Shown here piece by piece: positions 4,601-44,642 of a stretch of DNA of 64,000 nt (the stretch's first letter is position 1; every line of letters begins with the position of its first letter). The stretch spans positions 17,209,501 through 17,273,500 of the forward strand of contig NC_088111.1 of NCBI RefSeq assembly GCF_036370855.1. Reading direction: 5' to 3'. This DNA is from Dromaius novaehollandiae. Lineage: Eukaryota; Chordata; Aves; Casuariiformes; Dromaiidae. Both the position numbers and the translations under genes were made by a program. The notes under the pieces are model-generated. The model saw nothing but the letters and a program-made list of their open reading frames with translations, searched no databases and was not told the origin of the DNA.

Positions 4601-6706
4601 CCAAAGGTCCTTGATTCTGGGAGAGTCTCTAAACAACCTGAAAGAGCAATTATTGGAAAGCATCCTGCAAAGTGCCTCCAACCAGTTGCCCATGACTGAT
4701 AAACTTCCCTACCAAATAGACATTTTGATCAGCAGAACTTTTGATTCATAGGATTTGTAAGAAGGTGTTTACAAAACAACACAAATTTGGAGAGGCAACC
4801 AAAAACCAGCCTGTGTGTACCTGGCTACCTAACAACGCAGCATGCCTCTAGTCCTTAAAAAAAAAAAAAAAGGGGGGGGGGGGGGGGGGAAGCTAGGTTC
4901 ATACTTAGGTATGTGGAATGCTTCCATGATCCTAGAAAGTGGGAAAAGAACTATGCTGTGAGCATACCATGCTCACATGCCACATACCATGTGGAGCAAC
5001 CATGTAGCTTGAGAGACAAAACTGGACAGGGGACTAACCAAATATAAAAGCAAGATGGTCTTGCATTCTGTTCCCTGCTTGTGAAAATGGTTTTGACGCT
5101 CTGCCTTATGTGACATAAGATAGCATTCACTGAATGCCTTTCTAGAGACTTCTGGTGATTAATTCACCTTTGTCAACACTTTCATAAGTGCTGAAGTTTA
5201 GTATAGCAGCACTTTATGAACATCATAGACAAAACTACATTTTGACTGGTTCTCTATTTTCTATGAGGCCTCCAGCTACCTTCTGCACTAAAATGCAGGA
5301 AATAAATGTAATACTTAAATGTACAAATTCTTCTGCAAATAGTGAAACAACATCCCAGAACAACAGACCTGTGGCATTGTGAAGACGCATATTTCCAGAC
5401 ATCTTGCCACTCTTTCCTCCTAATCTTCCATTCCACTCCTCACTGCTGGTCTCTAGCCTTCCTCGAACCTGCCACGCTGAAGCCCAGAGGATTTCAGCAG
5501 CATGTGGTGAGGATTCCCCTTCCACAACTCCCACCTCTCCTTTGTATGTGCATTCATACAAATTCAGTTGCTTTCTCCTCTTTTGAAGGGTTGCATTAAT
5601 GTAGTCGTGTTTACCATTAGTTTTATTGTACTCCATGTACAAACACTGCTATTCATACAGTGTTCTCAGGCACTTTATGACATTTTAAGCTTATTTCATG
5701 CCATAATTTAATCATTAAAGAACTGCTATATGGCTCCAATGGCCACTATCCTGTTGTCTTTCCTGATGCATCTCTTTTGCTTTTCTCTATCTGTAATCTG
5801 CCTGTTTACTTTATAGTCTCTTTGGGAAAGCCTGTCTTCTCCCATTAAGAACAGAGTCTACAAGATAAATGAAAATGACACAGTACAAGTAGAGAGGATA
5901 ACGAATCCAAATCAGAGCTCTCTAGCTTTAAGAAAGGTTGAGTCTCAAAATGTGCTACCATCTCGCCTAAATTTATCATGCATCTTTTTTCCTTAAAGGC
6001 TTTGCCCCAGATATCATGTTATTTTATGAGAATGTTGATTTTATCTATAAATTCAATTTCTAACTTTCTTGGCTGCAGAGGAAATCTGGAAAACATGAAC
6101 AATCAGATTCAAATTTTATGGCAAAGAAAAAGACTCTAACTGTTCTTACTTTTTTCTTTTTTTAGCTTCCATGCTTTCTAGCCAAAAGTAGAAATCTCTA
6201 ATAATATCTACCCTCTAATGACTTTTTGCTGCATGAGGCAGCTATAGGTAGAGCGAGGGAGAAGGGAGAGAGAAAGAGAAAATAGTTCATTTTCCATTTT
6301 CATTCAGAACTTGACTTTTCTATAGAGCAACTATCACCAAGCTATCAACAGTATCTTTTGCAGGGGCACAGGGAGTATGGCACAATAGATTGCCAAGAAG
6401 AAATGTAAGAGGATACATCTAATATATCTAATCAACCCACCAAGCATTCCTTAAATAAACCAAGACCTCAGATTCATTTCATATTAGCTATCAAGAGGAA
6501 TAAACAGTCATTTCCAATATATTGGGTTTTTATTAGTCCTGCAAGTTTTCTTCGTCTGCATTTTGCCTGAATTTTCTGCACAGATCACATAGATCTGCTT
6601 AGTACACGGATGAAGTACGCAGCTGTCAGAAATAATTGACATTACAGATTTTTGTCTTGTTACTAACACAATATGAGTATCACCTTCCCTCTTCTCAGTT
6701 TTTCAG
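1621..6706. other. Intergenic DNA, no gene recognised
   Basis: About 5 kb of AT-rich DNA. It includes a possible old MIR-like fragment near 2490-2600, a short CA repeat near 3253 and a poly-A/poly-G tract at 4857-4889. The largest ORF is a 135-codon minus-strand frame at 5235-5642, which has no family signature that I recognise. I looked here for upstream exons of the ENPP7-like relic (the catalytic-nucleophile exon) and could not find them. Confidence 0.5.
4857..4889 (+). repeat. Homopolymer junction A15/G18
   Basis: Fifteen A residues (4857-4871) are followed directly by eighteen G residues (4872-4889). An uninterrupted G18 run can fold into a G-quadruplex and is length-unstable in copying and sequencing, so the exact counts are uncertain. 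Confidence 0.85.
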
Positions 6707-9700
6707 GGGAAAAAAACAGCCTCATTCCATTATCCCAATGATGGTGCCACTTATACGGGCCAGGCATTTGACAGAAGCCTTGTGGTATCATTTGATCATC
6801 CTGACAGCAACGAGACAGTGATTAGGCAACAGTGGCATAGTCAGAAGCTGCTTCTCTAAGGAGGATTTTGATTTTGTCACACTTTACTATGGAGAACCTG
6901 GTAACGTAGGTCATGAGTGGGGTCCAGAAACAGCTCAGAAAAAAGATCATGATTCAATGGATAGACAGAACTATCAGTTACCTACTAGAAGCTATTGTAA
7001 GACATGGTTTGAAGATAAACCCAAAGTCACAATTTCTGCAATGTCACCATTACACCTGATGGTAGTATGACTAAAGAAGAAACTTGTTGTATAGATCTTA
7101 TTGTCCAACTATATCATTCTGGATTATGGTAGTTTTTTGAATGATATTGCTGAAACCAGGAAAAAAAGAGAGAATTTATGAAGCACTGAAGAATGCTCAT
7201 CCTCACCCAAAAGGGTGCAGAAGAGAAGAATTTCCTGTACAATTTCACTATGCTAAACTTAACTGTTTGTGGTGATTCCAGCTACAATATTAATTGGGTA
7301 AGCTCATTACAGAAGTCGAAACAGTCTTAAAATTTCCTAGGCCTCTGCTTTTGCTACAGACCAGGTCTCAAAGGAATTCCACAAAAATCTACGTCCAACC
7401 AGTATTTTATTCTATCACAGCCCTTAAGAGTAAGATATTAAATTTATCCTTCCACCTTCCTTTTAGTGTATCAGACCTTATCATTACACGCATTATTTGT
7501 GATCAGTCCAGATCCCTAAGCAGTAACAAAGATATTCTCTAAAGTTTCTTCTGTTTCTTAGCATCTGATAATTATAAGTACAAACTAAAAGCAGTATTTG
7601 TGATGACACAAAACTGGTACAGAAACTGTTACCTCTCTGTCAGCAGCAGGACTAAATTACACAGTCAAATTGCCTTTCAGCTGTTGTCTACTACCTTACT
7701 AACCATTATTCCAACTTGACTGATATCCGTGTCTCTCCCTCCTGATTGGCATGTGTTTTCTGGATCGTTTTCTCTATTTTTTCCCTCCCAACCAAGATAT
7801 ATTTACTGATTTTTTTTCTATCTTGAATCTCATTTCATTATTTCACACGCCCACCTTTCTGCTCTACTTAGGTCCTATTGCATTATTTCCCTCTGTTCCA
7901 CCATCATTTCTAGTTTTGGTATTATCTTGAGTTTCACTAACATGCTACTTTCACTGGTCTTTAAAGAAAAAATGAAATACGATGGACTGTGCAGTAACTT
8001 CTGGTGCAGATTTCATAAGCAAACCCCAATCTCATCTCTGATATTTATCAATTAATATTTTATATTAATTAATATTGATATCAATATTTATAAAACATTA
8101 ATAAGCTTTTATGCATGTCCTTTTGTTTTTTTTTTCTCACTAAAGACATTTTAAAATAAACATTTTGGCCTTTTTTATCATGAATTTCCTCTACTCCTAG
8201 TTTATCTGTGGCTTTCACCAGCTGGTGGAAAGGCTTCACTGATCAGAAAACTTACATGAGAGTTTTTTCTCTCCCTGCTCCACAAGAAACTTCCACAATT
8301 GGAGTCACAGGGACCTCTGGCTTGTACCCTCAGTTCAAGTGACAATCATGGCCTTTAGTAGGAGAGCACTGAATTCTATTATTTCCTCAAAACCAAACAG
8401 TTTCTTTTCTAGCATTCCCTATCCTCTCTTCAGTTGCCTGATTGCCCTCCATTCCTAACCCTACCTCCTAACTCCATTTTGGTGTGAGCCATCCAGGCAA
8501 ACCCTGCAGCATCCCAGTGTCCAGGCAGCATCATTGTACCATGGCCTAGGAACGTTTTCTCTGTTGTATTTTAATTCCCTCATTCCCATCTACTTAACTT
8601 TTTCTACTTCTACTTCTGCACTTCATTCTCCCCTACAAACCTTAAGTGATGTGGTATATTGTTGCAGGAATTTTACCTTGTTCGTCCTTTTAATTTCATC
8701 CACTTCCCATTCCTTGTATTCTGTCTTGAGGAATGGACTCCTGTGAAACCTAAATTACGCCATTATAAATCTCCTTGGGATGAATGCATGCTTGAGAAAG
8801 GAATAAGCAAATGAAAAAGGACATATGAACTGGACTCATACACATTTCATCAACTAAAGGTTTGCTTGTTTGTTTAAATTGAAATCATTATGCAGAATAG
8901 ATATGAGAGGGCTTGCTAGTGATTTAAGCAAAGGTTCCCAAAATCAGAACTCCCAGATTATGTTTTTAGCACTGAGCAGCTAGATGCATCTCTTGGAGAT
9001 CTGCAAAATATACCCTTCTCTCAATTTTTACTTATATAAGGTGCCTTATTTTGCTTCTCTGCACTTCTGCTGAATTTTGAGAAAATTCTTTGTTAATATA
9101 CTATGAGGTTTACCCTGTTTATGGTTCTAGAAAACATACCAGAAACCCAGTGTTTTTAAGAAAAAAAAAGGGCTTTTTTTTTTTTTGGAACCTGTGGACA
9201 GCTCTAATAAAGTGCTCTTTTGCCCAGTTTTTCAAAATTAAAATTTTTTCTTAGTTGGATTAGTTGGTGATAGGTCTCATCCAAAAGTAACAGAAATGCA
9301 GAAGTGCATATTACAGCTTCCAAGGTTTTTTTGTCTTCAGAAGCTAAGGTCAAGTTATCTTTGACAAAATAATGTGCCTACAGCCATTTTGTAGAGCAAC
9401 AGTGACATACAGTGGCCACCGAAGCAATTCCTAAATCTTGCTGACCCTTTATGATTGCCCTTTAAACCTGGGAAGATCAGGCTGGGAACATTTAGCATAC
9501 ACTGCCACTGTCTCTACGGATCACAGTTCTTTTTCCCCTTCCTTCTGTCCCCCTCCTCTTGTACGTTGCAATGTAATATTTGTGAAGGGCAGAAAAGCTA
9601 TTTTCTATAATAGATTATCACAGCGGTTTTAACAATACAATTTTTTGTTTTGAAGGTCTTCCTTGAAAGTCAGCTGTTTTGCATATCACAATAAAAATCA

Positions 9701-10715
9701 TAGTTAAATAGATTCCAACTGCATTAGCATTAGCCCAAAGCAGTGCATCCTACAAATTGAACTGCAAGGATTAGGTAGTATGGAAGTCTTCCAGAACCAT
9801 TCATTTTGTTAACATTTCATTCAGAGTTATCTCAGCATTCTGGTATTAAGCTCAGTTCATTCATCTAGGGTTTTGCTTTGAACCCAGAGCAAGAGGCACT
9901 TGCTGCTTCGGAGGATTTCAAAGTCCCTGTTTCCTACTTCCCTTCATAAGAAGTCCCCCTTCCCCAGTCTATGTACCCCTATGACACAATTTTAAAGTAT
10001 GTCCGCACAACTCTGCACACTAAGTTGGGAGAGAGGAGCAAAGCCAAAGCTGCCCCGGCTGAATTAGTGCGGTGCTGCAAGCAGCTCCCTCCCTGCCCCA
10101 GGAGCCAGGCGTTCGCAGCAGCCAGGCCCAGGAACATAGGGCATCGCTTACCTCCCCTGCAGCACAATCCAAGTCACAATCTGTCTCACAGCGCACGTTG
10201 AACAATCAGGTCCAGCAGCCACTAGCAGAGTTCAGGTTTGCTCTTTCTGGCTGTTTTAAAATAGACCTAGGTTCATTTGGTGTAGGTTTTAGGAAAACAA
10301 GTGACAAGAGCAGGAATGATCAACACTGACTGAAGCACAAAGTACATCCCTGAACCTGCATGCTATTCCTCCCATTTCTTCCTGAAGCTACAGCCCACCT
10401 GCCTAAATTCAGTGCCCAGCTCAAACTTTGATCCCTCACGTATACATGTGCATGTGTGTGTACTGCTGTGTACCATTAGATGCCAACTACACTTCCCTCC
10501 ATTATGTTCTGTTTTGTTACAGTCTTTCTGAGATTCAATATACTTTAACAAAAGGAAATCATGCGTTTAATATTAAGGACCTAAAGATGATACTCAGATC
10601 TTTTGGTTCTGATTTTAAACAGAATTACTTAGCTGAACCCTTCCACAGCATCTAGATAAATCCACTGATGTGTGAACTCCTGGGAGTCCACCTCGAGCCC
10701 CGTAATGGGTCTCCA
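6707..10715 (+). pseudogene. Decayed ENPP7-like gene, two exons, unprocessed
   Basis: Two stretches on the plus strand translate, across frameshifts and stops, into successive pieces of an ecto-nucleotide pyrophosphatase/phosphodiesterase closest to ENPP7 (alkaline sphingomyelinase). Exon A (6707-7297) follows a TTTTTCAG acceptor and ends before a GTAAG donor. It shows YPNDGATYTGQ, then KEDFDFVTLYYGEP and GHEWGP (family pattern LYxxEPDxxGHxxGP), NVTITPDGSMT (family NVIITSDHGMT), IYEALKNAHPHPKG, EEFPVQFHYAK and GDSSYNIN. Exon B (10523 to about 10715) follows GTTACAG and shows KGNHAFNIKDLKMILRSFG, FKQNYLAEPF and MCELLGVHLEPRNGS. The two exons are collinear and join where the family sequence is contiguous. 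Damage: an in-frame TAA at 6857, frameshifts near 6858, 7170 and 7265, and a TAG at 10653. Metal-ligand positions are also lost (EPD reads EPG, DHG reads DGS). The kept intron and splice sites argue against a retrocopy. The upstream catalytic exon was not found. Confidence 0.8.
7298..10522. other. Intron of the ENPP7-like relic
   Basis: The segment between the two relic exons. It is AT-rich, with an ATTAATATT-type palindromic stretch near 8050-8100 and A/T homopolymers near 9165-9187. A mildly GC-rich patch occurs at about 10020-10140. I see no coding exon or repeat family. Confidence 0.45.
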
Positions 10716-23819: not shown

Positions 23820-24340
23820 GGCCCAGAGACGGGGGCACGGGCGCAGCAGCCCACACCTCATGGCGAGGGCGGCAGCCCGCCCCGGCCAGCGCTGCGGGGA
23901 CGTGGGGCACGGAGGCACGCAGGAAGGGCGCGCGCCCCGAGGGGAGCAGGGAGGGGACGCGGCCGCCCCTCGCTCGCTGCCTCCCTTGCTTCCCACCTTA
24001 GCCGCCGCCGAGGCAGCAGCGGGCCGCCGCCCGGGGGCGGCGATCACGCGAGGCCGGGGACGCGGCCTGCTGCGGGGCGGCGCCGCCGGGGCCATGGCCG
24101 CCGCCGAGGAGGAGCTGGCGCTCGGCTTCCAGCGCCGCTTCCTGGCGGCTCGGCCGCTCCGGTCCTTCCCGTGGCCGGTGAGTCGGGGCGGGGGGAGGGG
24201 GGGCGGAGAGCGGCCCCGCCGGGCGCCTCGCTGCCCCGCGGCGGGTGATCGAGCGGCGGCGGCGGGGCAGGGGCCGCCCCGGCCCCACCATTTTAGGCCC
24301 CAGCTGCTAGAAGCAGCCAGCGGCGGCGCAGCGGTTGTAC
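23820..24340 (+). promoter_or_regulatory. CpG island, EEF2KMT promoter and exon 1
   Basis: There is an abrupt change from AT-rich DNA to dense CpG, with several GGGGCGG-type GC boxes. The island surrounds the EEF2KMT start codon at 24094, which sits in the strong Kozak context GCCATGG. No TATA box is visible, as expected for a housekeeping promoter. The island continues into the start of intron 1. Confidence 0.8.
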
Positions 24341-27300
24341 AGCACAACTGCCCCACGTGAAAGGCAGTTCCGCAGGACAAGTAACATTAACGTGGAGGAT
24401 TTTGGTTCCTCTCCCGCAATGTTTGTGCTTCGCGGTTCAGTTCATCTGCTCGTAGCATCTGGTGTTACAGAAAAGTTAATTTCAGAGAATCAGTCCGGCA
24501 GCGCGTATAGGCAGTACGCTCAGCAAGGCGTGCTAGCAGCTCCTGCCACGCGCCGACTGCTGCGCAACTGCAGAAGTCGGAGTTTTCTAGGTGGAATTTG
24601 GCACTACCGTATTGCTGAGCCCTCCCTGTTCCAGGGGAGGTGCACGTCGTCTTTCCAGGATCAGCAGCTATGGCTATCGACCCCTTTTACAAATAAATTA
24701 ATTTTCACAGAACAATTTGTTTTGTGCAGGATTTGCGGTTTACAGACTGCAAGTGTACTGACACAATTCAGGACATCTGCTGCACTTCACTACCAGCTGA
24801 GTTTTACTGCAGTTGAGTTCACTGTGAATATATTCCACTGCATCAGCAACTCTGCTGATAATGAAGAGCCCAAGCACCACTTACCCAACCTGCATGACTG
24901 ATCCCCATGACTGCAGTGAAAGCAGTCATGTAAGTGCTCAAAATTAACTATCGGTGGGTCAAGAAAGTGGCCTAAAAATTTAACTTGCTGCAAAGGCTAT
25001 ATTCAAATAGCAGGTACGAGGACAAGATTTTGATTCACAGCAATGAATGTGATAAATTGATGTGAAATTTGATCATAGTCTGATCCCAAAGTTTCGAGTG
25101 TCTAGAATGAGATATTCAATTCTACTCCTAGAGGAGGAAGGATTTAATATTTATGACTTCACTGGGGCGAGAGGCTTTGTCCATCAGTGTAGGAAAGTGT
25201 ACTGTTCTGTCACCTGATTTTTACCTTTGTTTTGTATTGCTTTCCTTACGAATTAATAATGGTCTATTTATATTGCATAATAGATTATGTTAACATCATC
25301 CTTCACAGCAGGCTTCTTTGCTTCCACTGTGTAGAATTTGGGTGACTTTTGTTTTCTAATTAGCATTTATCGTAGTTGGATTGTGGTGTATCAAATACTG
25401 AGGATGGGGGAAATTCTCATTTTTTTCCCTATTTTAGGAACTTGAACAAAAACTAAAAACTTCATCGGATTCTTCGCTGCTGGTAGATATATTGCACAAG
25501 GTAATGTGGACTAATTTAATATCATGACATTTAAAGACACACTATAGAGCAGGCCAGAACTGTTTTGATCATATGGTACCCCTTACGCAAGCAGAAAAAT
25601 TGCTGCCTTGCACTGCTTTTTGTTGACAATTAGATGGATAGGGAAATCATAGCAGTTTTTCTCTGTGCCCAGCAAAACAGGAAATTTTCTTTTATTTGTG
25701 TTATTTAGCTGTTCATCATTAGCACCAAAATTAAATTTGAGCACGGATGTCTTTAAGACTGCTAACAAGTCAGACAAGTTGATCTCATATAAATGGTGCT
25801 CTAATTATTAAGAAGGAAGTAGGTGATCTAAATCACCATCAGAATTCATACACCTTTTTTGTATTTAAACTTTGTACATAAACAGCAAGTCACAAATAAG
25901 AAAAAAGAGTCAGTTGGACTCTTTTTCCACCCACTTTTCTATTTACTTTTTGAAATGCATTTGCTTCCTCAGATCTCTACCCTGCCAAACTTACCAGAAA
26001 TCACCAAATTTAATTTTCTGGCTTAGTATCACTTCTTTTAACTACAAATTGAATCACTATGCATTTCATGGTGCAAAAAGAACCAGGTTCCATTAATGGC
26101 TCCCTTTTCTTTCTCTGGCCCTTTATTACCTTTCATAAAATTTTCACTTGGTAATTGATTTCATTGCCGTTGTTGGTTTATGTTTCAGACTATTCTCCAC
26201 CCCCTGTGTGTAAAATATCCCTCTTCAGTCAAGTACAGAAGAGGCTTTTTAACTGAACTCATTAAAAAGGTAGTGTTTACTTTTCATATGGCATGGAACC
26301 TTTTTTTTTAATCTTGGGATGGGTCTTCTTGTTAAATGGATTCTTACAAATCACTTGAAAATATGACATTTTTACATTATGGACCAAGCTGAATTCTTTG
26401 TAATAACAAAAACTAGCATTCAGTGTAAAATGTTATAGTAATGGTGTATTGAAATGGTATTTGATTTGTGTATAGTTTCTGCTTCAAGATTGATAAATTG
26501 GTATCTGAAATCTTGTACTATTCTCTTTCACACAGCATGAATCCACAACAGCTGAACCCTTGGATGAATTGTATGATACACTAGCAGATATTTTAAATAA
26601 AGAAGAATCTACTCAATGTTACAAAAACTACTTACTGGTAAAAACAATATTGCATTATTATAAATCACTTTTAATCATCTAAACTAAGCAGTAATTGGCT
26701 TAAAAAGTAACCCCCAGAAACCCAGCGCACAAAGTGCTTCCTACCTTTCTCCAGATGCTAGTACTGATTTTAAACTGTAAAATATGTTGTCTGTGCTGAT
26801 GCATCTTTCTTTTCCTGCGTGTGTCTTCCAGCCCACAGGAGAATCTGTTACCCTTTCTGAGAATGTGGCAATCATCTCACGAGGAACCACAGGGCTTGTC
26901 ACATGGGATGCTGCTCTTCATCTTGCTGAATGGGCAATAGAGAATTCTACAGTTTTCAGTAACAGGTAACAATCACATCTCAGATAGAAAGATGGGGAAT
27001 GGTGCTAAGGTATCTTCATCCATATCGTGAATGAGTTACGCAACTATAATTTGATAATACACATTATTTACCCCCCCCAAATAACTAAAATTTAAAATAA
27101 TGTGTGACTTTTAAATGTGAGCAAGAAAGAGTCCCACTGAGGTAAGTCTTAGCAATTCCTAATTTCCCTTCCCTAAGCACTCTTACATCATTAAGAAATT
27201 AAAGAATCATACAGTACTTTTGTAATTTTATCTCAAGATCTCAGAGCACATCACAGATGTTGATGAGAAACAGTGCCTCTATATTTTCCTGGTTTTGCTG

Positions 27301-30300
27301 ATAGTAATGGTATGGCACAAAGAAGCTGGTTGACTTGTTTCTGACACCGTAAGCCTCAGGGCGTAATGACTACACCCTTTCCCCACTGGCTAACTGCTAC
27401 TCTTGTCAGTACTGTTCTGCAACAGTTGAGCTTTAATCCAGCAGAAGACTTCAGAGATACTTTAAGACAGGTATTAAGATCAAAACCATTACACCATGCA
27501 GTCTGACCTCCTCTGTTCTGTAGACTATTAAATTTCAGCTACCCCACTGTCAAGCCAATAACTTTAATTAGTGCACTTAGCTCCATGATGGGAATCATTT
27601 TACCTAACTTTAGATGATTACAGTGCAGATGTCTACATCTCATTATCTAAACTCTGTTTATAACCAGTGGAGAAGAACAAACACTTTTGGGGAAAGATTC
27701 AGCTGACTTATTTTAAGTATCTACCTCACAAGTAAATGGATTGTGCTCTAGAAGTCTGTTTCTCTTCCCTGACTATGAAATGAACTGGACAACCAGTTCA
27801 GATGGAGACAACCATGCTGCAGATGTCTAAAGTTGGGTGGAACATGTCTCACCCCAGGGAGGGAAATGCTTTCTACCATATGCAGAAGCAGGAGACTGAA
27901 GTTCCTTCCTTTCTTCAGGCCCAGACAGTGGGAGAGAAGTGATTAAGAGAAGCACATCTAGATGATCCTGTTGGCTACTGCTTCTAACCCCCGTTCTTTC
28001 CCCACAAAACATAAAGTATCTTTGCTGAGCAAGCTTTGAAGAAACTTTCTCAACCCAGCCCTGTAAACCAGTTTGACATTAGGCAAATTAGCAAGACATC
28101 AGCTGAAAAAGAGGTACTATGTTACTGACCAACTATCTGCTTTTGTTTTAAAGTGATTTGAGATCTGATTTCTCTGTAGGGTTACTTGGCTTCATCCCAG
28201 CATACTTCTCTTTTTAATCCCCATGCAAGATGTCTGATCTGGAACATCCAAACTTTTTCTTGTGGAAGTCAATTCAGGGCAGTTTAAGGAGGTATATTAG
28301 AAGCATAGCATAATTTTGACTAAGAGAATATTTGGATCACTATCAGGGGTGCACAGGAGCTGGATCTGGGGGCCATATAGTGTCATACTCACATGATGTG
28401 GGAACAGGCGCTTAAGCTTGTTTATAAGCCTTATCTTTGGGTGTCTGCATACTGTATCTCACATAAGTCTTCCAGTTGCTCCAGAAAATGTTAATTTTAT
28501 ACATATTTCAGTAACTGATTCTTATGCTTAGAATTGCATCTTCATTACTTTTATGTTCTGATTTCATAATTCAAATTAGAGTCCTAATAAATACTTATTT
28601 TACTCCATTAACCTTTAGGACAGTCTTGGAATTAGGAAGTGGGATCGGCTTCACTGGAATTGCAATCTCTAAAACCTGTAACCCCAAGGCATATATATTT
28701 AGTGATTACCACCATTGTGTTCTCAAACAGCTGACAGAAAACATTTGTTTGAATGGCTTTGTTTTGGAGCCTGAAACTACTAATCATATTGAAACGCAGT
28801 CCCAAGGCCAGAATGTGGAAGTGATGAATTACCAAAAACCAAAACTAACTGTTGCAGAACTTGACTGGGCCTCAGTTACAGAAAAACAACTGCTGGATCT
28901 TCAACCTGATGTCATCATTGCAGCAGGTACCATACACTTCTGACTGTGCTTCCCTGTGTGATATCATGCAGCAATAAGTAAATTAACAGGGACAAAATGC
29001 GAAAATATTTATGTGGAGGACTCAGTCATTTCAGTTATCGTATCTGAAAGTGTATGACAGATGTACTTCCAAATCATTTCACCATTCTTTTTCAGATATT
29101 CAACAGCTGTTTACATATCATTGAAAATCAAATTTTGTCCTCTTATTTTTCTTAATTGTGAAACAGAAGATGATAAGAGCTTATCAGTTAGAACTGGCAA
29201 ACTTTGCAGTCTCATAAGGAATAATGCATATTAAGAAAATGTTACTTTTTTGGAACTTACATACAAATCTTCAGGGACTTCATAAACAATTGAAGATGTT
29301 AAATCTAGCAGTAGTAAAATTTCAGAGCTGCAGTTACAGGCTTCCCTGATTTGGGGCTTTGCAAAGCAAAAATTGTCTAAGAATTCAGGTGAAGTAATAA
29401 AAAAACATTGTCTTTGTCATCAAAGGCATAACATTAGATAGATTGTGAATTCTATAAAATGAAGTCGCTGCATGTTATCTAATCCCAACCATACTGCTCA
29501 CAGAATGCACAAAACAGCATAACTTAGATTCATAAAGTCATGGTAATTCAAAACTGAGGGTGAATTACATATTTATCACTTTCCATTACTAGCTACTGCA
29601 GCACAGACTTTTGTTATGTTTCATCAAAAGTAACTGGTACGTCTGTCACTGGTACATGCATATGCCTTGACTTTTCTATGTCATGAACAACCACCTCTCG
29701 AATATCAGTTCATAACACAAGACTGACAGACTTCAGATTCACACTGCTAAACAGTAAGGCTGATATTTTGTACTCCTTAATGGTCAGTTTTACATACTTT
29801 CATAAGTATTCCTACTGTTAACAAATTGTTCAAGATAGAAGCTGCTGCAGTTCAAATCAAGTGTTTTGTGATTAGCCACTGAAATACACGTCTAATAATT
29901 CAGTTTCATCCTGCTAAGGACAGTCATAAATGAGAGTACCAATGCTCAACTTTTTTGCTTGAGACGCTGCATGAACTAAACACAGTATTTGAAAATCCAT
30001 TTGCAAAATGGAGTGCCAGTTTTTCCTGGGTTTGCACTGATACTACAGATGAGGGCAACTTGGCACAGCACATACAATGGGATATGTTTTCTAAAGGCTG
30101 TTCTGGAAAACTTTTAACTCCTCAATTAAAAAAAAAATTCTGCTTTAAGGTAAATATTTTATATTTTCATTTTGTAGTTTTCATTCTGCTTTTTGCCTTT
30201 TTCTCAATAAATACCATATACTTTTCTTTTTGTGCAGATGTGGTATATGATCCAGAGATAACTTTAGCCCTTATTGGTATGCTACAAAAACTCTCCACTT

Positions 30301-31176
30301 TCAGAGCAGATGGAAAACCTCCTGAGGTCTACATTGCTTTTACAGTTCGTAATCCCGACACGTATCATCAGTTCAAGGCTGAACTTGGTAGGTGCCTTCT
30401 CATTAAGTGTATCAATAGTTTTGGCCTCCTTCCCAGTTACTTAATCTGTAATAGAGATGAACAGGAGCATTTTTTTAGCGATGGCTATTTTCTGATAGAT
30501 TCTTATCCTATAGCTAGATCCAGCAGAGGTCAGCTAAAGAGCCATGACCTTCCACATGGATTGGATCAGATTGGATCGCAGCTTTTTGCTACATCCTGCC
30601 TATTGTAACTCACATTTATCATAGTGCCAGCTTGTGATGAATTGCAGGCTTGGCGGTAATAAGAAAGATCATTACAGTTAAGATTAAAGGAGGAAAAACA
30701 TCTGTGCTGCACTGTTGTAGTGATAACATTCCAGATGCAGCCTAAAACTTTTACCTTGACTAATTGTTCTTTGAGGATTAAAAAACTAGAGATGAAATAA
30801 AATAAGGAGGAATGTTGGACTTTGCTTCACATACTCTTCAGAAGCCTGTCTTCTGCAGCCTACTGGCTGTACAGCTAGCCTTCAGCAATTGGTTAATAAA
30901 ATTGTCGACCACATAGCACAAGCATATCTCTTAATTTTTAAAAATACATACTCATAAGCATTTGCCTGTAGCTTGAACAGCATCCTAAAAGATCTCTTCT
31001 TACAGAACTTGGCGCACAACTTTTGTTCTTCATTTTGTTAAGCAGAAATGTAATTCCTAGTGTTTCTTTTCACAGATAAAATTGGGATTGCATGGCAGAT
31101 TATTCCAGCCCACAGGAACAGTATTTTCCTCTATGATCTGCATTCAAACGTAACTATTCTACAACTATTGATATAG
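24094..31176 (+). CDS. EEF2KMT: EEF2KMT: eEF2-lysine methyltransferase (FAM86 family)
   Basis: Eight exons: 24094-24177, 25438-25500, 26189-26269, 26536-26637, 26832-26965, 28619-28926, 30238-30387 and 31076-31176. They join in phase to 340 codons plus TAG, close to the human protein (330 aa, also 8 exons). All introns are GT-AG. The product is a cytosolic class I SAM-dependent methyltransferase that trimethylates a lysine (Lys525 in human) of elongation factor 2. Residues 11-28 carry the FAM86 N-terminal motif (FQRRFLAARPLRSFPWP). Residues 111-155 hold GESVTLSENVAIISRGTTGL then VTWDAALHLAEWAIEN. Motif I (SAM binding) is LELGSGIGFTG from residue 158. The post-II motif is AADVVYDP at 256-263, split across the exon 6/7 junction. 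The C-terminal beta strands include EVYIAFTVRNPDTY. Everything expected appears intact. It is transcribed toward ALG1. Human carries many FAM86 copies and pseudogenes; here I see one. Confidence 0.95.
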
Positions 31177-34886: not shown

Positions 34887-37800
34887 TCATTCATTCTGCT
34901 TAAACAAAGGAAGAACAGTCTGGTCCCAACTCTCATCCCAGCGCAGCTGCTTGGATGCCCGAAGATTTCTTCTGAAATTGTGAAGTTTGCCTTCCAGTGT
35001 AGGAAATTCTAAGAAGAGCATCTGTAAATTGTTTATTAAAAAAAAAAGAGAGAGAGAGAAAGAGAGAGAAAAAAAAATACCATCATTATTACATTTTAGG
35101 CTCATTCTAGCCTTCCCAATTTTTACCCTAAACTACAGTGTTACATAAAAAGGAAGCTCTTTGGTCTGACCCTCTAAATAACATAAGATGACAACATTTA
35201 AAATCTTACTGACAGCTTCAGATTCATACACAAATAGAAATATGGCTAATAAGATTTGCCAGGCAAAAGAATATCCTCTGAGACCGCAAAATACATAGAT
35301 GATAGTCAGATATGAAAAGGCAGCTCACATGGTAACACCTTTCTAATTATAGCCAACAAGAAAGAAAAAGAATCGGTCAAGCCTTTACCTTCAGCTGTTC
35401 TGCAAGTTCATTTGAATCCCTAAATATCAGACCATTTTCATTGTGTTTCACGAGTTCATGTAAACTGTGAAAAAAGTCACAGAAGAAAACATGAGAGAAA
35501 AAGCAGCAAATGGGATATGCATATTTAAAGTTACACAGCACTACCTGCAGAGACTGTGCTATGATATCTGTAACATTAAGATCCTGGATATGCATGTACG
35601 AGCTTCATTCCTGGCAAAATGGGATAAAGAAGCCAGATAAATTTAACGATTGTTTCCCCTCCTATGTGTCAGCTTATCCAGGTCTACCACTACAGTAAAG
35701 TGCCCTCCCTCTGTCTTTGTGCCATTCATTTGGACATACGTTACAAGTTAGGGCAATGATCCTTGTGTTAAAATTAACCCACAAGGCAAATCTGTCCATG
35801 ATCTAGTTCATGGGATTTTCATAAAATTCTGCCAGCACAGGAGAAGAAGGAAGAACAGTGGCAAAGGGAAGAAAGCAATGACTGAGGAAACCATGTTAGG
35901 TGCATCAAACATATTTACAAGGTTGAACTTGCCCTTCAGAAGAGGCTCGACTGAACTGTGCTACCACAAATGATTTTAAGATTTTTTTTTCTGGTAAGTA
36001 GTTTTAAGTGATACAATCTTCTGTTCTAAAATCACTTGAAAAAATTATTCAGTAGTTACAGTGTTATCAAGACATCACAGCACAAAGAATGTATTTTCTT
36101 TATAAAAGCCATTGTTTTCCCAAAGAACTGTAAATTGTATAGCTAACTATACATACACTCATCCTTTCATAGGACACAGACATGTCTATGTGGAAGGAAG
36201 CATTTTTTAATTAAGTATCCAGAAACAAATCCAGATCCACCTGGGATTACAGGGCAGTTATTCTTTATGGCAACTGGCTGCATTAAGTACTCTCAATTTT
36301 GCTGAATCTACTGTTAATCTTTTAACAGACCTGAAAGAAAACAATCTTGATGTCTACCATTTATCTTACTGAATCAAAAAAATAGAAGTTACTATGGCAT
36401 AATACTGGAATCACATTTGATATATGGAGAAGCTGCTGAACTGTTGCTTTGTAAAAGAGAGTATTGGGTTTTTTTAATCATCAACTTAAATTATATCAGA
36501 ATAAGCAAGCTCTTACCATTCAAAGTGTATTGCACATACAGGTAAACAACAGCCAAACATATCTACCACCTTCATAGGTAAATCCAAACCACTGGATGAT
36601 TTATGGAGACACACACCCAAATCTGCTGAGCCTGAAAAGCAAACAAAATCAACAACAGCCTAAATTGTCTGAAAGCAACTCTTCTAATCTTATTGTAAAC
36701 TTTTTTTTTCTACGGGTGACATGAGCTAAACATAAGCCACTTTTCAACACCATCCGGACTGACCCAATTTCAGGCACTAAAAAAAAAAAATACTATACAA
36801 CATATTTTGTTACTAAAATTAGCCAAGTTTTAGAAACATACTAGACAAGCTGATAGTAAATTAAAGAGAATTTTAAAACCTCACATATCTTAAGCAGCCT
36901 TTCTGCCCCTTAATCTCCTAAGAATGAGTAAGTGTACAGAAAAACTCTATCAGAATGCAGGCAAGATGTGCTTCATGGCTTACGAGCAACCTCTTCCAAT
37001 TCAAGTGATTTCAAAACACAGAAATTACATTATCATTTTACAGACGCTATATTATTCAGAAATTACAAATTACCTACTTTTTAAAGCCACATAAATGAGC
37101 AATCTCTAAGCCTCCAAAAAGTAGATCAAGTTGAATTTGTATTTTACTATGGTATTAGGCTTACTGACACTTTATGCTATTACAAGGAACATGCTGAAGG
37201 AACACTGTTCCAAAGACATGTTAATTTAGAATTTCAACTACTTTTTGTTGCTCAGCCAAAAACTTTATCCCCAAGGTCAGTTCAGTAAAGCAAATCATAA
37301 ACTGGAACATATATATAGGCACATTGTATTTCAGCATACCTATACAAATGGAGGGCTGCAAAGACCAGATTAAAATACAATGCAGATACTGTGTCTGCTT
37401 CTCAAAATAGCTAGAAAAGACTGTATAGTTACAGAAGCTCAGCAGTTTTGCTGGCATGAGGAAAAAACACAAGCACTATACATCTCTACTGTCATTAATG
37501 AGCAATTTCACTCACCTACTGTATTCACCTGTGCAAAATTTGGATCGGCTATCTGCAACTTTGCTAATTTGTTTTCATACATTCTCATGTCTACTTAGTA
37601 ATCCACTATTTACCAAGCAAAAGGGGGTAATCCTCAGCTTCAAGCCATGGTGTACAGATCTGGATGTGTTTGAAGTACAATTTATCAATCAGTTGGTTGT
37701 AGTACTCTTTTAGGGGTCCTTTGCCTTTTTAAAATAGAAAAAAATATATCAGTGATTTTATTGGGATGACTGAACATAAGGTGCAGTCTGTGCATCATAG

Positions 37801-40800
37801 TGTACAGTTGACAAAATCCTGTTGTCTCAGGCAAGTCAAAAAAGATACCCCCATGATCTCCCAAGAGACTATGTTCCCTTGAAAGCAACGTGAATCTAGA
37901 CTTCATCTCTTGAACAGTAATTAGAAGAGCTTGCCATTGATATCTTCCAGTCTTGTCCTACTTTTTGCCTACAGCTATAAGATTACAAAGTAACTAATGA
38001 CAAATTTCATCAGCATGATAGCCCTTTAAAAAAAAAATCACACTATTAATGAGAAAGTTAACCAAACAGCATCCATTCTATCTGCACCACTTTTTTTCAA
38101 AACTTGCTTGATGAGTATATCTCCTTTTCCAGAACTAAATAAAAACCTTTCTGCTGAACAGACCAAACATCAGAATTTTACATATCTTTTGCTGCGCTAT
38201 CTCAATGTTCAAAATGTTAAGATTAAAGTATGTGGAAACTGAAGTAGTACTAGATGGATGAGCTGAGAAATTCTCCTGTTTACAAATATGGCATGGTTAC
38301 TTTGCTTCAACAGTCCAAATAATTTATTACTTTTATTTATAATCAGACATAAAGACAACAGTCCCTCCTATCTCTTCACCATCAGTAGAAGAGTTAGCAT
38401 AGTGTGATGGTCTTTTGTATTAGCACTGAAAGAGAATTCTAAGACAAAGAAGCTATTACCTGTTATCACACATACTAAAGATGGAAGCTTGACTCCCTCA
38501 TTGATACACCTTTCATAATCTGGAGGAGATAAAAAAAAGTTTTGAGTTGATAAATATATGGACACCTGTCTGATCCCGGAATGATCACAGTTTACAAATC
38601 ATTACTTCCTACTTCAAGCAATTTCTTTAAAAACATATACATATACATATATAGTAAGAGTTGTAAATTTAGCAAACAAACTTCTATAAAAATAAACTAT
38701 GGTATGTTTGAAATGCACTGTTCATAAATCATTTGTTCAGCTATCCCAGTTCAGTGGTTTCAATGTACTTAGAAACTGTAGCCGCAAAGTCTACCAAATA
38801 GATCAACATATATTTCCATCTTATTTTCAAATGCTTATGGAGAGTACATATAATGGCTTAGAAAGTAAAATTGCAATTTGCAAGCTAGTTAGAAATATAA
38901 ACTCCCTCCCCCCAAACAACTGCTTTGATTGAATCCAGATGTTGCACTTCTCTATTTTAATACCTACACTTAAACCACTGGCACTTTTTCAAATACATTT
39001 GTATTTTCACTTGAATTTAGAGGCATTGTTGTTTACAGAAAGTCTTCATAACTGTTCAGAATACAGCCATATCCATTTGAATAGCAGAACTGAACTCCTT
39101 AAAACCTACCTTCTAAAGCTTTTAAAAGGACAGAAAAATCTTCATCCTCTGAAAGAGAGGGCTTTATTAGTGACATTCATATTACTATTATTTGTAATAA
39201 CCTATTGTCTTTAAATTATAATCTTTAGGTAACAGTGAGAAAATCATGATTATTAAGCATCCTACTGAAAATCTTCTATAACTATTATTTTCATAAATAC
39301 AATCCTATACCATGCCAATAAGAGCAGGAAACAAGCATTGTGTAACTCTTCAGACAAACAAACCACAAATAGCGCACATTCCCAAAAGACAGACCGTATC
39401 AAGTTAATTCTCTAACTTTAGAAACTAGAAATTTTTAAGTGCAGAAATTGTCCTGTGAATTCAAAGGTATCAACAATTCTGCCCATGGTTACTAGCAATA
39501 GATTTTTCCCCCCGTTCCTCTTTTTTCATACAGACAGGAAAAAAAAGTGAGAAAATATATGTAACATGCATAATCGTAAATAAGAGAGTAAAAATTATAA
39601 TTTCTTAGGGTCATTTTACAGCACCATAAAAGATCATATGTCTACAGTGAAAGTTAAAAAAAGAAGTAGAAAATTTCAGCATCTCATCTGTAGCTCTATA
39701 ATAAAAAAAATACATATTTTTTAATTACTCACTGTTAGCCACTGAGGTATATTCTATACAACTGATCTTCAAATTTTTCCAACCAAAGCAAAGAAAAATG
39801 CAACTTTGCCGCTAATAATGCCAGTTTAGCATGACAAGCATCACATGTGGGGAAGCAGAAAACAGCCCTAGTTTTCTTTTTTGTTAAACGGTGGTTAAAT
39901 ATTAAAAACAAATGATTTATTTCCAAACCTGTCCAGCTTGTGCTGCTGATTAGAAGAGCTGGCCGTCCTCTGGTTTTTATCACACATCCATTTTTATGAT
40001 CCATTTCTGTAAAGGCAGACCTCTCAGCACTCGAATTGACAGACTCTGTGCTATGTAAACAGAATTTTCTAAATATGGACTACACAAACAGCCAATAAAC
40101 ACAGAAGCAAATACTGCGCTTAACTGGCAAGAATTTCCAAATGCTTTGTTTCAGATTTGTTGCTCAAATTCTCTGAAAACATATTTATTGAAGTACTGAT
40201 CTGCAAAGAGATACCTGATCATAAGAGAGATCATTTTTCATTTTTAGTACTGCTACCAAGAGCCTCGTAACACTACTTCTACAGGCATGATTCCATCCTC
40301 TAACAAACTATTTTCCTTAACAAGTTGATAAAACAATCAGCCTGTCTTTCCATCTCTGTCTTAAACATGTATTAGAAGATGGTGGCCCACAGTACATTTA
40401 TGCATTCTGTGCCGTAAATTTTCAAAAAGAAACTGCCATATGCTATGGCTTTCTCCTCCTTTCAAGGCACTGGTTTGGTAAAGTAACGTCAAGTTAAGAT
40501 ATCTACTAAGCTTATAGTAGGTAGCCAGAGAGGAAAGCTTAACACTTGCACAAAGACCGTGAAAACTCTCCGCAGTAAATGAAAGGAAGGGATATTATCA
40601 ACGTAGCATCCAATAAGTGCCATCTAGATCAGCAGGAAACACAGCTGCTGCCTTTCACCCTTTAAATGTTCTATTACAGATTCCCTCAGTACTTAGGCCA
40701 TTTTTTCAAAAAAAATATTTGTCTTATTTTATACATTAAGAATTGTGTGTTGCCATTTACTAATTTCACTTATTCTGGCCTCTCTCAATGACAACTAAGG

Positions 40801-43800
40801 TAACTTGCACATCATCTCCTCCTGGCCAAAAGCACATGAAGACCCCTCTGCCTGTTGATGTTCAGTAACTTGTGACCCTGTACAAAAATATTTCTAGTAA
40901 CTAAGTTCAATAGCCTTATGTCATTCAGTTAAGGACTGTAATTGCATTTTTTACTTACACATACTGCGCTTTGAAAGGTTCATAGACTTTGGCAAGCTTC
41001 ATATACAATTGATGTTGAAGTTCTAAAGGTGTTTCCTTAAAATAAGAAGCTGGCTTGTCATACAGAGTTACTGCCCTGTAATAATATAAATTAACAAGTT
41101 AAAAAAAAATAGATGTAACAAGATGCAAACTGTAAAGAAAGAATGACAGGCTACAACACTGTAACATGGAAAATAAATGAATTAGTTAATAAAACAAAAT
41201 AATGATTTGACTCTTACGACTTTTTATATTCCTAAAGTTTTCTGGAATAGAACAAACTTGACATATTAGAGTGAACCCAGCAACAAAGAATCCCTTTTTA
41301 TGCGCATATTCAAGGGATGTAATGCAACCATGAAAACTGCAAACATAATTATCCTAATTTTTTAACTTACCTCATAACTGTGCCTGAGCAGCTTTGATTT
41401 TAAAGCCCTATGATCGCAAAAGAAAAATCTGTGGGACGGACTAACTGTAAGTTAATGCAGTGATTAGTGCTCAGTGTGATTCTATAGGCAGCTTCACAGC
41501 AAAGTTCCATAAAATCTAGACTCCCACCTTCTAGCCAATAGAGTGTTAATTATGAAAGCTAATGAAGATTCTTGAATGCCCACATTTCACTAGCTCATTA
41601 AAAAACAGAACTAATGTGCTTCAGTGGTTATGGACGGAAAAGGGAAAGTTGCTTTTGTAAGATTTCTCTATATCCAGAATCATCAGGGCTATGGATTTTA
41701 ATCTTACTGCAAGTATGTACATAATAACGTTAAGAGATATTTGACTTACTTTATATTGCACTTCTCCCATAGATCTTCTTTCATTGCGTTAGTGACACAG
41801 AAGTTATAGTCAGACAAACGCCCAAAAAGCTTTTCATACCTGACAAAAATTAAGTCTCAGTTAGGCACCACAGACAGGTAATCTCAATAGCCAAACAGTA
41901 GCTTCTCACCAGCTGCAATGAAAAAAAAATATACATATATAAAAGCAAACAAACAGAAACCCCAGTAATTGAAATTTAATTATGAATTATGTACTGACTC
42001 CTTATACTGGAATAATATCAGTCTATGAAAACTGATACAGGATTACTCTCTTATGCCTTAAGGCCTGAGAACACAATACTCAAAACCCTTTACATACCTC
42101 TAGCAAGGTGAATTCAGCAAGAAACACAAGTACCGTTAAAGATGGGTTGGAGTGTAAAGCAGCAATTAAGAACAAAAAACACTAGACTTAAAGTCATTAT
42201 AATAAAAAGATCAAAGTTTGCATATATACATAAAAGTAACCTGCCTACCTCACAAAGTCAGAATAAGAGACATATGCAAATCACAGATTTTTATCCATAT
42301 GAATGAATCTGTTAATTCCTATGACATTCTCTAATCTACCCGAAAATGCACAGGTTTCTAAGACTTTAATTTCCTATTAACAGATAGCTCACATACCACA
42401 GGCATGTATCTACATTGTATTGGGATACCGTATTTCACTTTTAAGTTTAAAATGGAATAGGCCTTTTTAGAGCCTGGACTTCTTACAATGATGTGCATTC
42501 TTTACAGTTTGCACTGTGTGTATACACACATATATCTGGAAGAATATTCCTTACCCTTAAAGCCGAAAGGGAGTCCTTACAGTACACAACAGAAAATAAA
42601 GACAGGTTTTCTTTTAGAAGCTGCTCACAAATTCCCTTATGTAGATTAATATAATTCCTTCAGATTACTTAAATCATTTTATAGAATAAAACAACCTAGA
42701 CTGAATTTTTAGCATGTTTTGCAGGAAGCCACCTACCATCACCTTCCCATACATTAACAGAGGCATTTTATAGAATTTGCTTTCTGAAAAGGAAACAAGA
42801 TCAAGACAGCAAAATCCGGAACTTTAAAGAATTAGCCCTTTGCTAATTACACTCTACTCCCCGCTCTCCATTCTTCTGAATATTGCGAAGGTACATAATT
42901 TGTAAAGAGAAAAAGAAATTACTATACAAACCATTTTGCAATTTGTACTAGGAGGTGATTTCTTCCATGAATCAGACTCATTATAGTATATCCATAGTTA
43001 TGCCAATCAATTATCAGTTTGCTTCTCCACACAAGACACGCTACCCAGGCAACAGCTATACTAGGTAGACCTGGAGGATTCTGTTTAATACATAAAACAA
43101 ATACAAGCAGTGTGAGATTGTGGTCAAGGGACAAACACTTAGCAACTACCAGAAAAAGAACAGCAACAGACTGAAATTACATGGTTTTTAGGAATCGCAA
43201 TGAACACACAATTTTGTATTCTCCAACTGTGTAATTTCCACTTTTTGCCATGAATACTGGTAGGCATTTCAAATGTTACTGTCAAATCTGGATCAAAGTT
43301 CCCCTCCAATAAATATACGAGCTTTTCCATTGAGATTTATTCTTCACTAATGTCCATACCAATGAAGTTTGAAAGCTCAAAAATTAACAGGAAAATGAAA
43401 TATGAGTTATCAACAGGAAAATCAAAAATTAAAACCAAATACATATTTTTATAAATAGGTTAACACCATGGAGTATGCCGGTTTCCACTCTAAAGCAGTT
43501 AGAACAATGTTCCGGACTGCTAAAAATGCCCTCTAATGTAATACTATCCTTTTTTTTTTTTTAATCAAAGTTACACACACAAAACGTACCTGAAGAAGCA
43601 CATAGGATGGCTGATCTATCGTCAACATTGTGTACAGTAATTGCATTGCTTGTGCAATGACTTTTACAACATACTGGAAAATCTTAGGGCCAACTGCAAA
43701 GTGACAAAAAAAGTTAGTAAGAATATTACTCCAGCTCTCCGAACAAAAACATGCTTTTCATATAAAACCAACCATCTTTGCAGGGAAAATCTTAGAGCGA

Positions 43801-44642
43801 AGGCACTCTGTAAAAAGCTGTTTTTGAAAAGACAGTACCCCATGATCCTTCCAAACCACAATTCTACATTTCATCTAGAAAAAAAACAAAATCAGAGTAC
43901 ACATGGACAAGCAAACACAGACGGAAAAGTTAAAAAACAACCCCCTTCTATTCCAACCTGCATCAGAACTGGATTAACATGCTGCAAAATCATAGATGCA
44001 AATACTCCCAATATGTAGCAATGCAACTAATTATTTGTAGCCTACGTATACTGCTAGGATAAACCAGCGCATAATTTATGCTCCTGGAGCAGAGAGAGGC
44101 AATGCACCGTCACACTTTTTGTGTACATAAAACTCCTTTTTGTTTTTCTCCTGGCCCCGAAAACAAGCAGCCTCGGACCCTAACGCCAGCCAGGCCCTGA
44201 CTGTTACTTCCCAAAACAACCCTTCACGAGGGACTTCAAAGCAGAACGACGCCGTACGCCGCTCGACTGAACTTACCCTGCAACGCTTTAAGGTCCGAGA
44301 TGGGAACGATCCGTATGTTTTCGTTGCCCAAAACGTCGCTGTGGGGCTTCGTCTCTGCAAGAAGATCAAAGGCCCCCGTGAGAGAGGCGGCCGCCGCGGG
44401 GGCGCGCGGGCGCGGGGGAGGGGCCGGCGGGCGCACTCACGCAGGTAGCCCAGCAGCGTGACGCCGCGCCCGTGGCGGGCCAGCGAGAGCGCGTGGTACT
44501 GCATGCGCGGGCTGCGGCCCAGGTCGCCCAGCACCGCCACGCACACCCGCCCCGCGCCGCTCGCCGCCCGCCGCCGCCGCAGCCACAGCAGCGCCGCCAG
44601 CGCCAGCGCCAGGGCGCCCAGCGCCGCGCTGCCCGCCGCCAT
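34887..44642 (-). CDS. ALG1: ALG1: chitobiosyldiphosphodolichol beta-mannosyltransferase
   Basis: Thirteen minus-strand exons in transcript order: 44441-44642, 44277-44354, 43590-43693, 42932-43080, 41750-41839, 40965-41075, 39929-40050, 39110-39148, 38460-38519, 37614-37724, 36517-36631, 35389-35464 and 34887-35021. They join in phase to 463 codons plus TGA (human 464 aa, 13 exons). This GT33 enzyme of the cytosolic ER face transfers mannose from GDP-Man to GlcNAc2-PP-dolichol, the first mannose of the N-glycan precursor. Residues 5-21 are the membrane anchor, followed by [24 protein letters not shown] starts at 39. NPPGLPS (129) and [18 protein letters not shown] form the N-terminal GT-B half. 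[15 protein letters not shown] and [18 protein letters not shown] start the C-terminal half, and [20 protein letters not shown] (20 residues) is the donor-site region. The protein ends with [14 protein letters not shown]. Exon 8 is only 39 bases. ALG1 diverges from C16orf89. Confidence 0.95.
35038..35077 (-). repeat. (GA)n purine tract at the ALG1 last-exon acceptor
   Basis: An uninterrupted A/G run on the plus strand, read as a (CT)n-T-rich tract on the minus strand. It lies only about 16 bases upstream of the ALG1 exon 13 acceptor, so it forms or extends that intron's polypyrimidine tract. Confidence 0.8.

Follow-up and report, generated by a model that had tools for sequence, protein, structure and literature searches.

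A dead ENPP7-type gene lies upstream of EEF2KMT in Dromaius novaehollandiae, and it is probably the whole-genome-duplication partner of ENPP7, lost later in this lineage. ENPP7 is the alkaline sphingomyelinase of the gut. The genome examined is assembled in 271 contigs that total 1.468 Gb, and the window, the whole 64 kb stretch of DNA that was analysed, is C14:17209501-17273500. Sequence comparison confirmed that two forward-strand segments of the window are the decayed coding exons 3 and 4 of this gene (Table 1). The gene is dead and, as its sequence reads, has no function now as a protein.

Table 1. Features of the relic, its neighbours, and the paralogous contigs. Positions without a contig name are those of the window; a slash marks an exon boundary.
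Feature	Position	Strand	Remarks
Relic exon 2, decayed	C14:17205692-17205838	+	two adjacent stops; E 4.8e-12; 49% identity to bird exon 2
Relic exon 3, decayed	6707..7297	+	acceptor tttttcag/GGG, donor TGG/GTAAGC, both phase 0 like intact ENPP7
Relic intron 3, retained	7298..10530	+	3.2 kb, ~0.6 kb in intact ENPP7; same position and phase
Relic exon 4, decayed	10531..10712	+	perhaps extends to ~10745, about 30 bases more
tblastn pieces, human ENPP7 query	6704-6826, 6825-6947, 6940-7257	+	joint E 5e-19
tblastn piece, human ENPP7 query	10488-10709	+	E 2e-8
EEF2KMT (FAM86A), apparently intact	24127..31173	+	8 ordered tblastn pieces, none with a stop; human query
ALG1, apparently intact	34905..44558	-	12 tblastn pieces, 11 without a stop; human query
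RBFOX RRM exons	C18, 16.33 Mb	+	four exons
RBFOX RRM exons	C14, 15.73-15.74 Mb	-	two exons, 21 + 13 residues, 100% identity; stretch partly N
SEC14L	C18, 7.78 Mb; C14, 17.30 Mb		
GRIN2	C14, 13.87 Mb; C18, 9.43 Mb		also C1, C41

Identity of the relic

A preliminary description of this DNA had proposed that two ordered, exon-sized segments on one strand encode parts of an ENPP7-type phosphodiesterase. This proposal holds. Human ENPP7, searched against the 64 kb window by tblastn, gives four ordered pieces, all on the forward strand, and they cover both segments. The pieces score 30.4-47.8 bits, against at most 27.3 bits from 50 shuffled queries. In the rest of the window, all tblastn rows for ENPP7, ENPP5, and ENPP4 have E values of at least 0.8, bar one ENPP5 row. 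That row (37706-37885, reverse strand, E 0.013, 28.9 bits) overlaps an ALG1 exon and was treated as a chance match. By frameshift-tolerant alignment, the two segments scored 282 and 104; the highest of 40 shuffles for each reached 45 and 51, respectively.

A joined relic reading was made by concatenating the pieces and placing X at the breaks. Among PDB chains, its top match by phmmer is human ENPP7 (E 2.2e-39, 138.6 bits), followed among the other ENPPs by ENPP5 (3.6e-19, 72.3 bits), ENPP4 (1.2e-14), and ENPP6 (1.2e-10). The Pfam family Phosphodiest also matches this reading (E 6.9e-10), and the three relic pieces submitted to Pfam one by one gave no ENPP match. Both the top match and the tree position described below place the relic in the ENPP7 branch.

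Searched against the whole genome, exon 3 DNA matches only itself. The read-through relic protein has six matches, four on C14, all within the relic, and two on C18 (16173911-16175344). Neither search found a second relic copy in the genome. The Phosphodiest profile has 22 matches in the genome, on C2, C3, C4, and C18, which fit ENPP1-7; the relic falls below those listed. ENPP7 excepted, the gene names for these matches are putative and go by position.

Exon plan and splice sites

The exon limits of the relic were fixed by comparison with the intact ENPP7 on C18. That gene lies on the reverse strand and has four exons with 64-82% identity to human ENPP7 (tblastn). Its exon 2 ends in CAAAGACAG/GTAAAG, and its exon 3 runs from ctaacag/GGC to CATGGG/GTAAGA. 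The acceptor side of intron 1, intron 2, and intron 3 all fall at the same codon and phase in the relic and in ENPP7. One large relic exon spans profile positions 99-306, and its counterpart on C18 spans 99-324. The plans of other ENPP genes differ, with one exon covering 1-258 or 1-263 in two genes on C3 and several small exons in a gene on C4.

The preliminary description had taken the 3.2 kb intron as evidence against a retrocopy. This intron stands at the ENPP7 position and phase, and intron 2 (10.4 kb) is retained as well, in a gene whose frame is broken, as in an unprocessed pseudogene. Two retained introns, with exon limits and phases the same as those of ENPP7, exclude a retrocopy. The splice sites described as still visible are so in part. 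The acceptor and GTAAG donor of exon 3 are there, but the acceptor of exon 4 has lost its AG (tttctg/AGATTC in the relic against ctttcag/AGATTC in ENPP7, CTG for CAG).

A look into the adjoining assembly for the upstream part of the gene had been proposed, and it recovered one of two exons. In the 60 kb of upstream DNA searched, exon 2 was located 3.7 kb beyond the left edge of the window, separated from exon 3 by 10.4 kb. Its acceptor AG and donor GT are intact, and its stops sit at two former tryptophan codons. Exon 1 carries the nucleophile. A search of the 66.7 kb preceding exon 3 did not reveal it: the best tblastn E value was 0.49, and a frameshift-tolerant scan peaked at 40 on the forward and 46 on the reverse strand, against up to 50 in 12 shuffles. 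A scan of the 26 kb preceding exon 2 did not find it either, its best score of 36 being reached by 27 of 30 shuffles. Intact ENPP7 exon 1, the positive reference for the scan, scores 336. Against the whole genome, bird exon 1 had five matches up to E 10, none of them on C14 among the best candidates scored.

Damage and loss of function

Relative to bird ENPP7, the relic has 129 identical codons in 298 aligned, eight frameshifts, and three or four stops. The lesions of exon 2 are its two stops. In exon 3 (77/190 codons identical), the frame shifts six times, the length changes at several places, and there is one stop whose presence hinges on the alignment. Exon 4 (29/60) carries two frameshifts, a TAG at 10653, and a deletion of two codons. 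The relic has lost a stretch of 7-12 codons. A looser alignment to human ENPP7 gave eight and five frameshifts in the two segments; some of these fall in the intron, and the counts against bird ENPP7 are therefore preferred.

In ENPP enzymes, the metal ligands are D39, D199, H203, D246, H247, and H353, and the nucleophile is T75 (ENPP7 numbering). The relic has replaced D199 with G (EPD to EPG) and H247 with G (DHG to DGS), both in exon 3, and has kept H203, D246, and, in exon 4, H353. D39 and T75 belong to exon 1, which was not found. The relic therefore does not have the full set of ligands and the nucleophile of a working ENPP enzyme. Each kind of damage on which the preliminary description had based its call of a non-functional gene, namely stops, frameshifts, and both ligand changes, was seen again here. 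Eight frameshifts in ~0.9 kb, together with the exon that was not found, suggest as a rough estimate that the gene died tens of millions of years ago or more.

Neighbourhood in the window

As first described, the relic is upstream of EEF2KMT, which shares its strand and is seen from about 24.1 kb onwards. Pfam Methyltransf_16 matches one of the two EEF2KMT exon readings submitted (E 1.9e-10). The one ALG1 piece with a stop (41749-41952) probably extends into an intron, and the first exon of ALG1 by itself had no Pfam match. A NAGPA-like reading frame is seen at 59665-60177, where Pfam NAGPA scores 21.7 bits, under the cut-off of 25. The order EEF2KMT-ALG1-NAGPA is that of human 16p13.3. SEC14L5-like exons occupy C14:17301500-17319601, some 28-46 kb beyond the right edge of the window, and their sister gene is on C18 at 7.78 Mb.

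Five long open reading frames had no Pfam match over the cut-off; they comprise four of the five of at least 110 amino acids at 10.7-21.2 kb and one at 5.2 kb. Rfam gave nothing at gathering thresholds. Repeats of at least 40 bases were absent from positions 1-24000. Positions 1180-1600 hold what we take to be a CR1-like repeat, typical of birds.

Relationship to intact ENPP7

A six-row tree was built from the relic, bird ENPP7, human ENPP7, ENPP4, ENPP5, and ENPP6, with ENPP1-3 left out. The relic and the two ENPP7 sequences form one group against ENPP4, 5, and 6, with support of 100/99. Within this group, the relic falls outside bird and human ENPP7 with weak support (64/53). The AU test rejects neither a pairing of the relic with bird ENPP7 (p 0.21) nor one with human ENPP7 (p 0.14). 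Decay has lengthened the branch of the relic and blurs its placement.

The relic is identical to bird ENPP7 at 124 of 291 positions and to human ENPP7 at 121 of 293; on the columns of the relic, bird and human ENPP7 are identical at 205 of 291. Bird and human ENPP7 differ at 86 sites; of these, the relic has the bird residue at 23 and the human residue at 20 (binomial p 0.76). This is the expectation if the relic split off before the bird-mammal parting. By these counts, the relic is as close to human ENPP7 as to bird ENPP7.

Paralogous contigs and probable origin of the relic

The RBFOX, SEC14L, and GRIN2 families occur on both C14 and C18. These are three of three families tested, but they were picked as known duplicates of these regions and are no random sample. 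RBFOX has a further match on C1. On C18, ENPP7 (reverse strand) lies 156 kb away from the RBFOX RRM exons (forward strand), 5' of them. On C14, the relic (forward strand) lies 1.47 Mb away from the RRM exons (reverse strand), again 5' of them. The relative order and strands of the ENPP7-type gene and the RBFOX exons are thus alike on both contigs, as judged from the positions of the RRM exons. Linkage to the other families is loose: SEC14L and GRIN2 are 6.7-8.4 Mb from ENPP7 on C18, and GRIN2 is 3.3 Mb from the relic on C14. The relic has the paralogous neighbourhood of an ohnolog of ENPP7, as judged from these chosen families and linkage across megabases. The shared families and the like order and strands make a whole-genome-duplication pair more likely than a tandem duplicate or a late copy, short of proof.

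Under the preferred reading, a second ENPP7-type phosphodiesterase ectoenzyme gene, here called ENPP7B, would have arisen in the early vertebrate whole-genome duplications. It would have held its place between RBFOX1 and EEF2KMT and died later in the lineage of this genome, by relaxed selection while ENPP7 persisted. Three points here are our inference: whole-genome duplication as the source of the shared families, enzymatic activity of the ancestor, and relaxed selection as the cause of death.

Copying could instead have been late. An interchromosomal segmental duplication after the bird-mammal parting could have placed an intron-containing ENPP7 beside EEF2KMT, where it then decayed. The exon plan, equal to that of ENPP7, suits this explanation, and so does the AU test, which allows the relic to pair with bird ENPP7. 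We consider it unlikely, since bird-specific residues are not in excess in the relic and the order and strands shared with RBFOX, as well as the human linkage of ENPP7P to FAM86 described below, would have to be coincidence. The self-match of exon 3 DNA also speaks against a late copy, though long decay could explain it too. An ancient duplicate of ENPP7, tandem or dispersed, could predate the amniotes without any whole-genome duplication. Such a copy would be equidistant from bird and human ENPP7, as the relic is, but would leave unexplained the families common to C14 and C18 and the shared order and strands, and we regard this origin as improbable.

The preliminary description had offered two choices, a unitary loss or a tandem-duplicate relic. 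A tandem relic was rejected, as the window holds no other convincing ENPP match and the intact ENPP7 is on a different contig. The earlier statement that no intact neighbour explains the relic is upheld, with ENPP7 on C18 as the nearest intact relative. Unitary loss stands insofar as no intact copy is left at the locus, the sister ENPP7 having survived elsewhere. That the gene is a working one spoiled by assembly or base-calling errors is barely credible. Frameshifts taken alone could be so read, but no support for this was found. EEF2KMT (8/8 pieces) and ALG1 (11/12) are free of stops in the same window, making poor sequence an unlikely source of the lesions. Such errors would also fail to account for the failure to find exon 1, the deleted codons, the replaced metal ligands, and the lost acceptor.

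Human ENPP7P pseudogenes and FAM86

In the human genome, an 88 kb duplicon at 16:5 M with ALG1 and FAM86A has at least 11 copies (PMC3048570). These are at 3:127 M (ALG1L), 11:67 M, 11:71 M (FAM86C), 11:3 M, 3:76 M, and 4:9 M, with further copies at 3:131 M, 4:4 M, 12:8 M, 8:12 M, and 8:8 M. That paper does not name ENPP7. Other papers place ENPP7 pseudogenes. For one signal, at 8:8.3 M, the gene list includes ENPP7P1 and FAM86B3P, both marked e (PMC8991226). The HML-2 provirus at 3q21.2 sits in ENPP7P4 with FAM86JP nearby, and ENPP7P11 is near HML-2 4p16.1b (PMC12922068). ENPP7P7 is inside a chromosome 11 segmental duplication, and ALG1L1P is tied to the same duplicated-element family, in a paper that does not name FAM86 or EEF2KMT (PMC13333887).

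All four ENPP7P copies with a place in these passages match sites to which the ALG1-FAM86A duplicon was copied, one by chromosome only (11) and one via the gene list of a signal (8:8.3 M). The matching of bands to megabases is our own, and other ENPP7P copies are named there without a place. None of the passages states an origin of ENPP7P at the FAM86A locus; the link is drawn here across papers. As the relic adjoins EEF2KMT, such an origin is likely, and the relic and the human ENPP7P family may share one ancestral gene. A fuller account, towards which the evidence tips slightly, is that ENPP7B was once an eighth ENPP gene of jawed vertebrates, fixed between RBFOX1 and ALG1-EEF2KMT, and that it died separately in this lineage and in the one leading to primates. 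Segmental duplication would then have spread the dead primate copy together with ALG1 and FAM86A and made the whole human ENPP7P family, whose members would be copies of ENPP7B and not of ENPP7 on 17q25.

In the open-access literature searched, with subscription papers outside the scope, no report of this relic was found. The same literature gave no paper pairing ENPP7 with EEF2KMT, nor one combining ENPP7, pseudogene, and segmental duplication. The papers found there on ENPP7 with FAM86 include none on birds by title.

Comparison with known systems

The closest known system is ENPP7 itself, represented by the copy on C18 and by the human structure 5TCD. The relic resembles it in sequence, intron positions and phases, and exon plan. 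Unlike ENPP7, the relic is disabled and is on another contig, and its share of identical codons with bird ENPP7 is well below the 205/291 between bird and human ENPP7.

STK33 of neognath birds is likewise an intron-containing gene that decayed in place, with exons lost, frameshifts, and stops (PMC4509753). In the available passages, its authors date its death in neognaths to ~100 million years ago. That age rests on many bird genomes, whereas the relic is known here from one.

The human ENPP7P family resembles the relic in that its members are ENPP7 pseudogenes named alongside FAM86 copies in the passages cited above. The human copies are many and were spread by duplication, whereas the relic is single and beside EEF2KMT itself; the two are likened by location. 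The relic would add a lost eighth member to a much-studied ectoenzyme family. It also offers a simple origin for the large family of human ENPP7P pseudogenes; those passages leave the link of that family to FAM86 copies unexplained. Should an intact ENPP7B survive in other vertebrates, it would be a poorly known relative of a gut sphingomyelinase.
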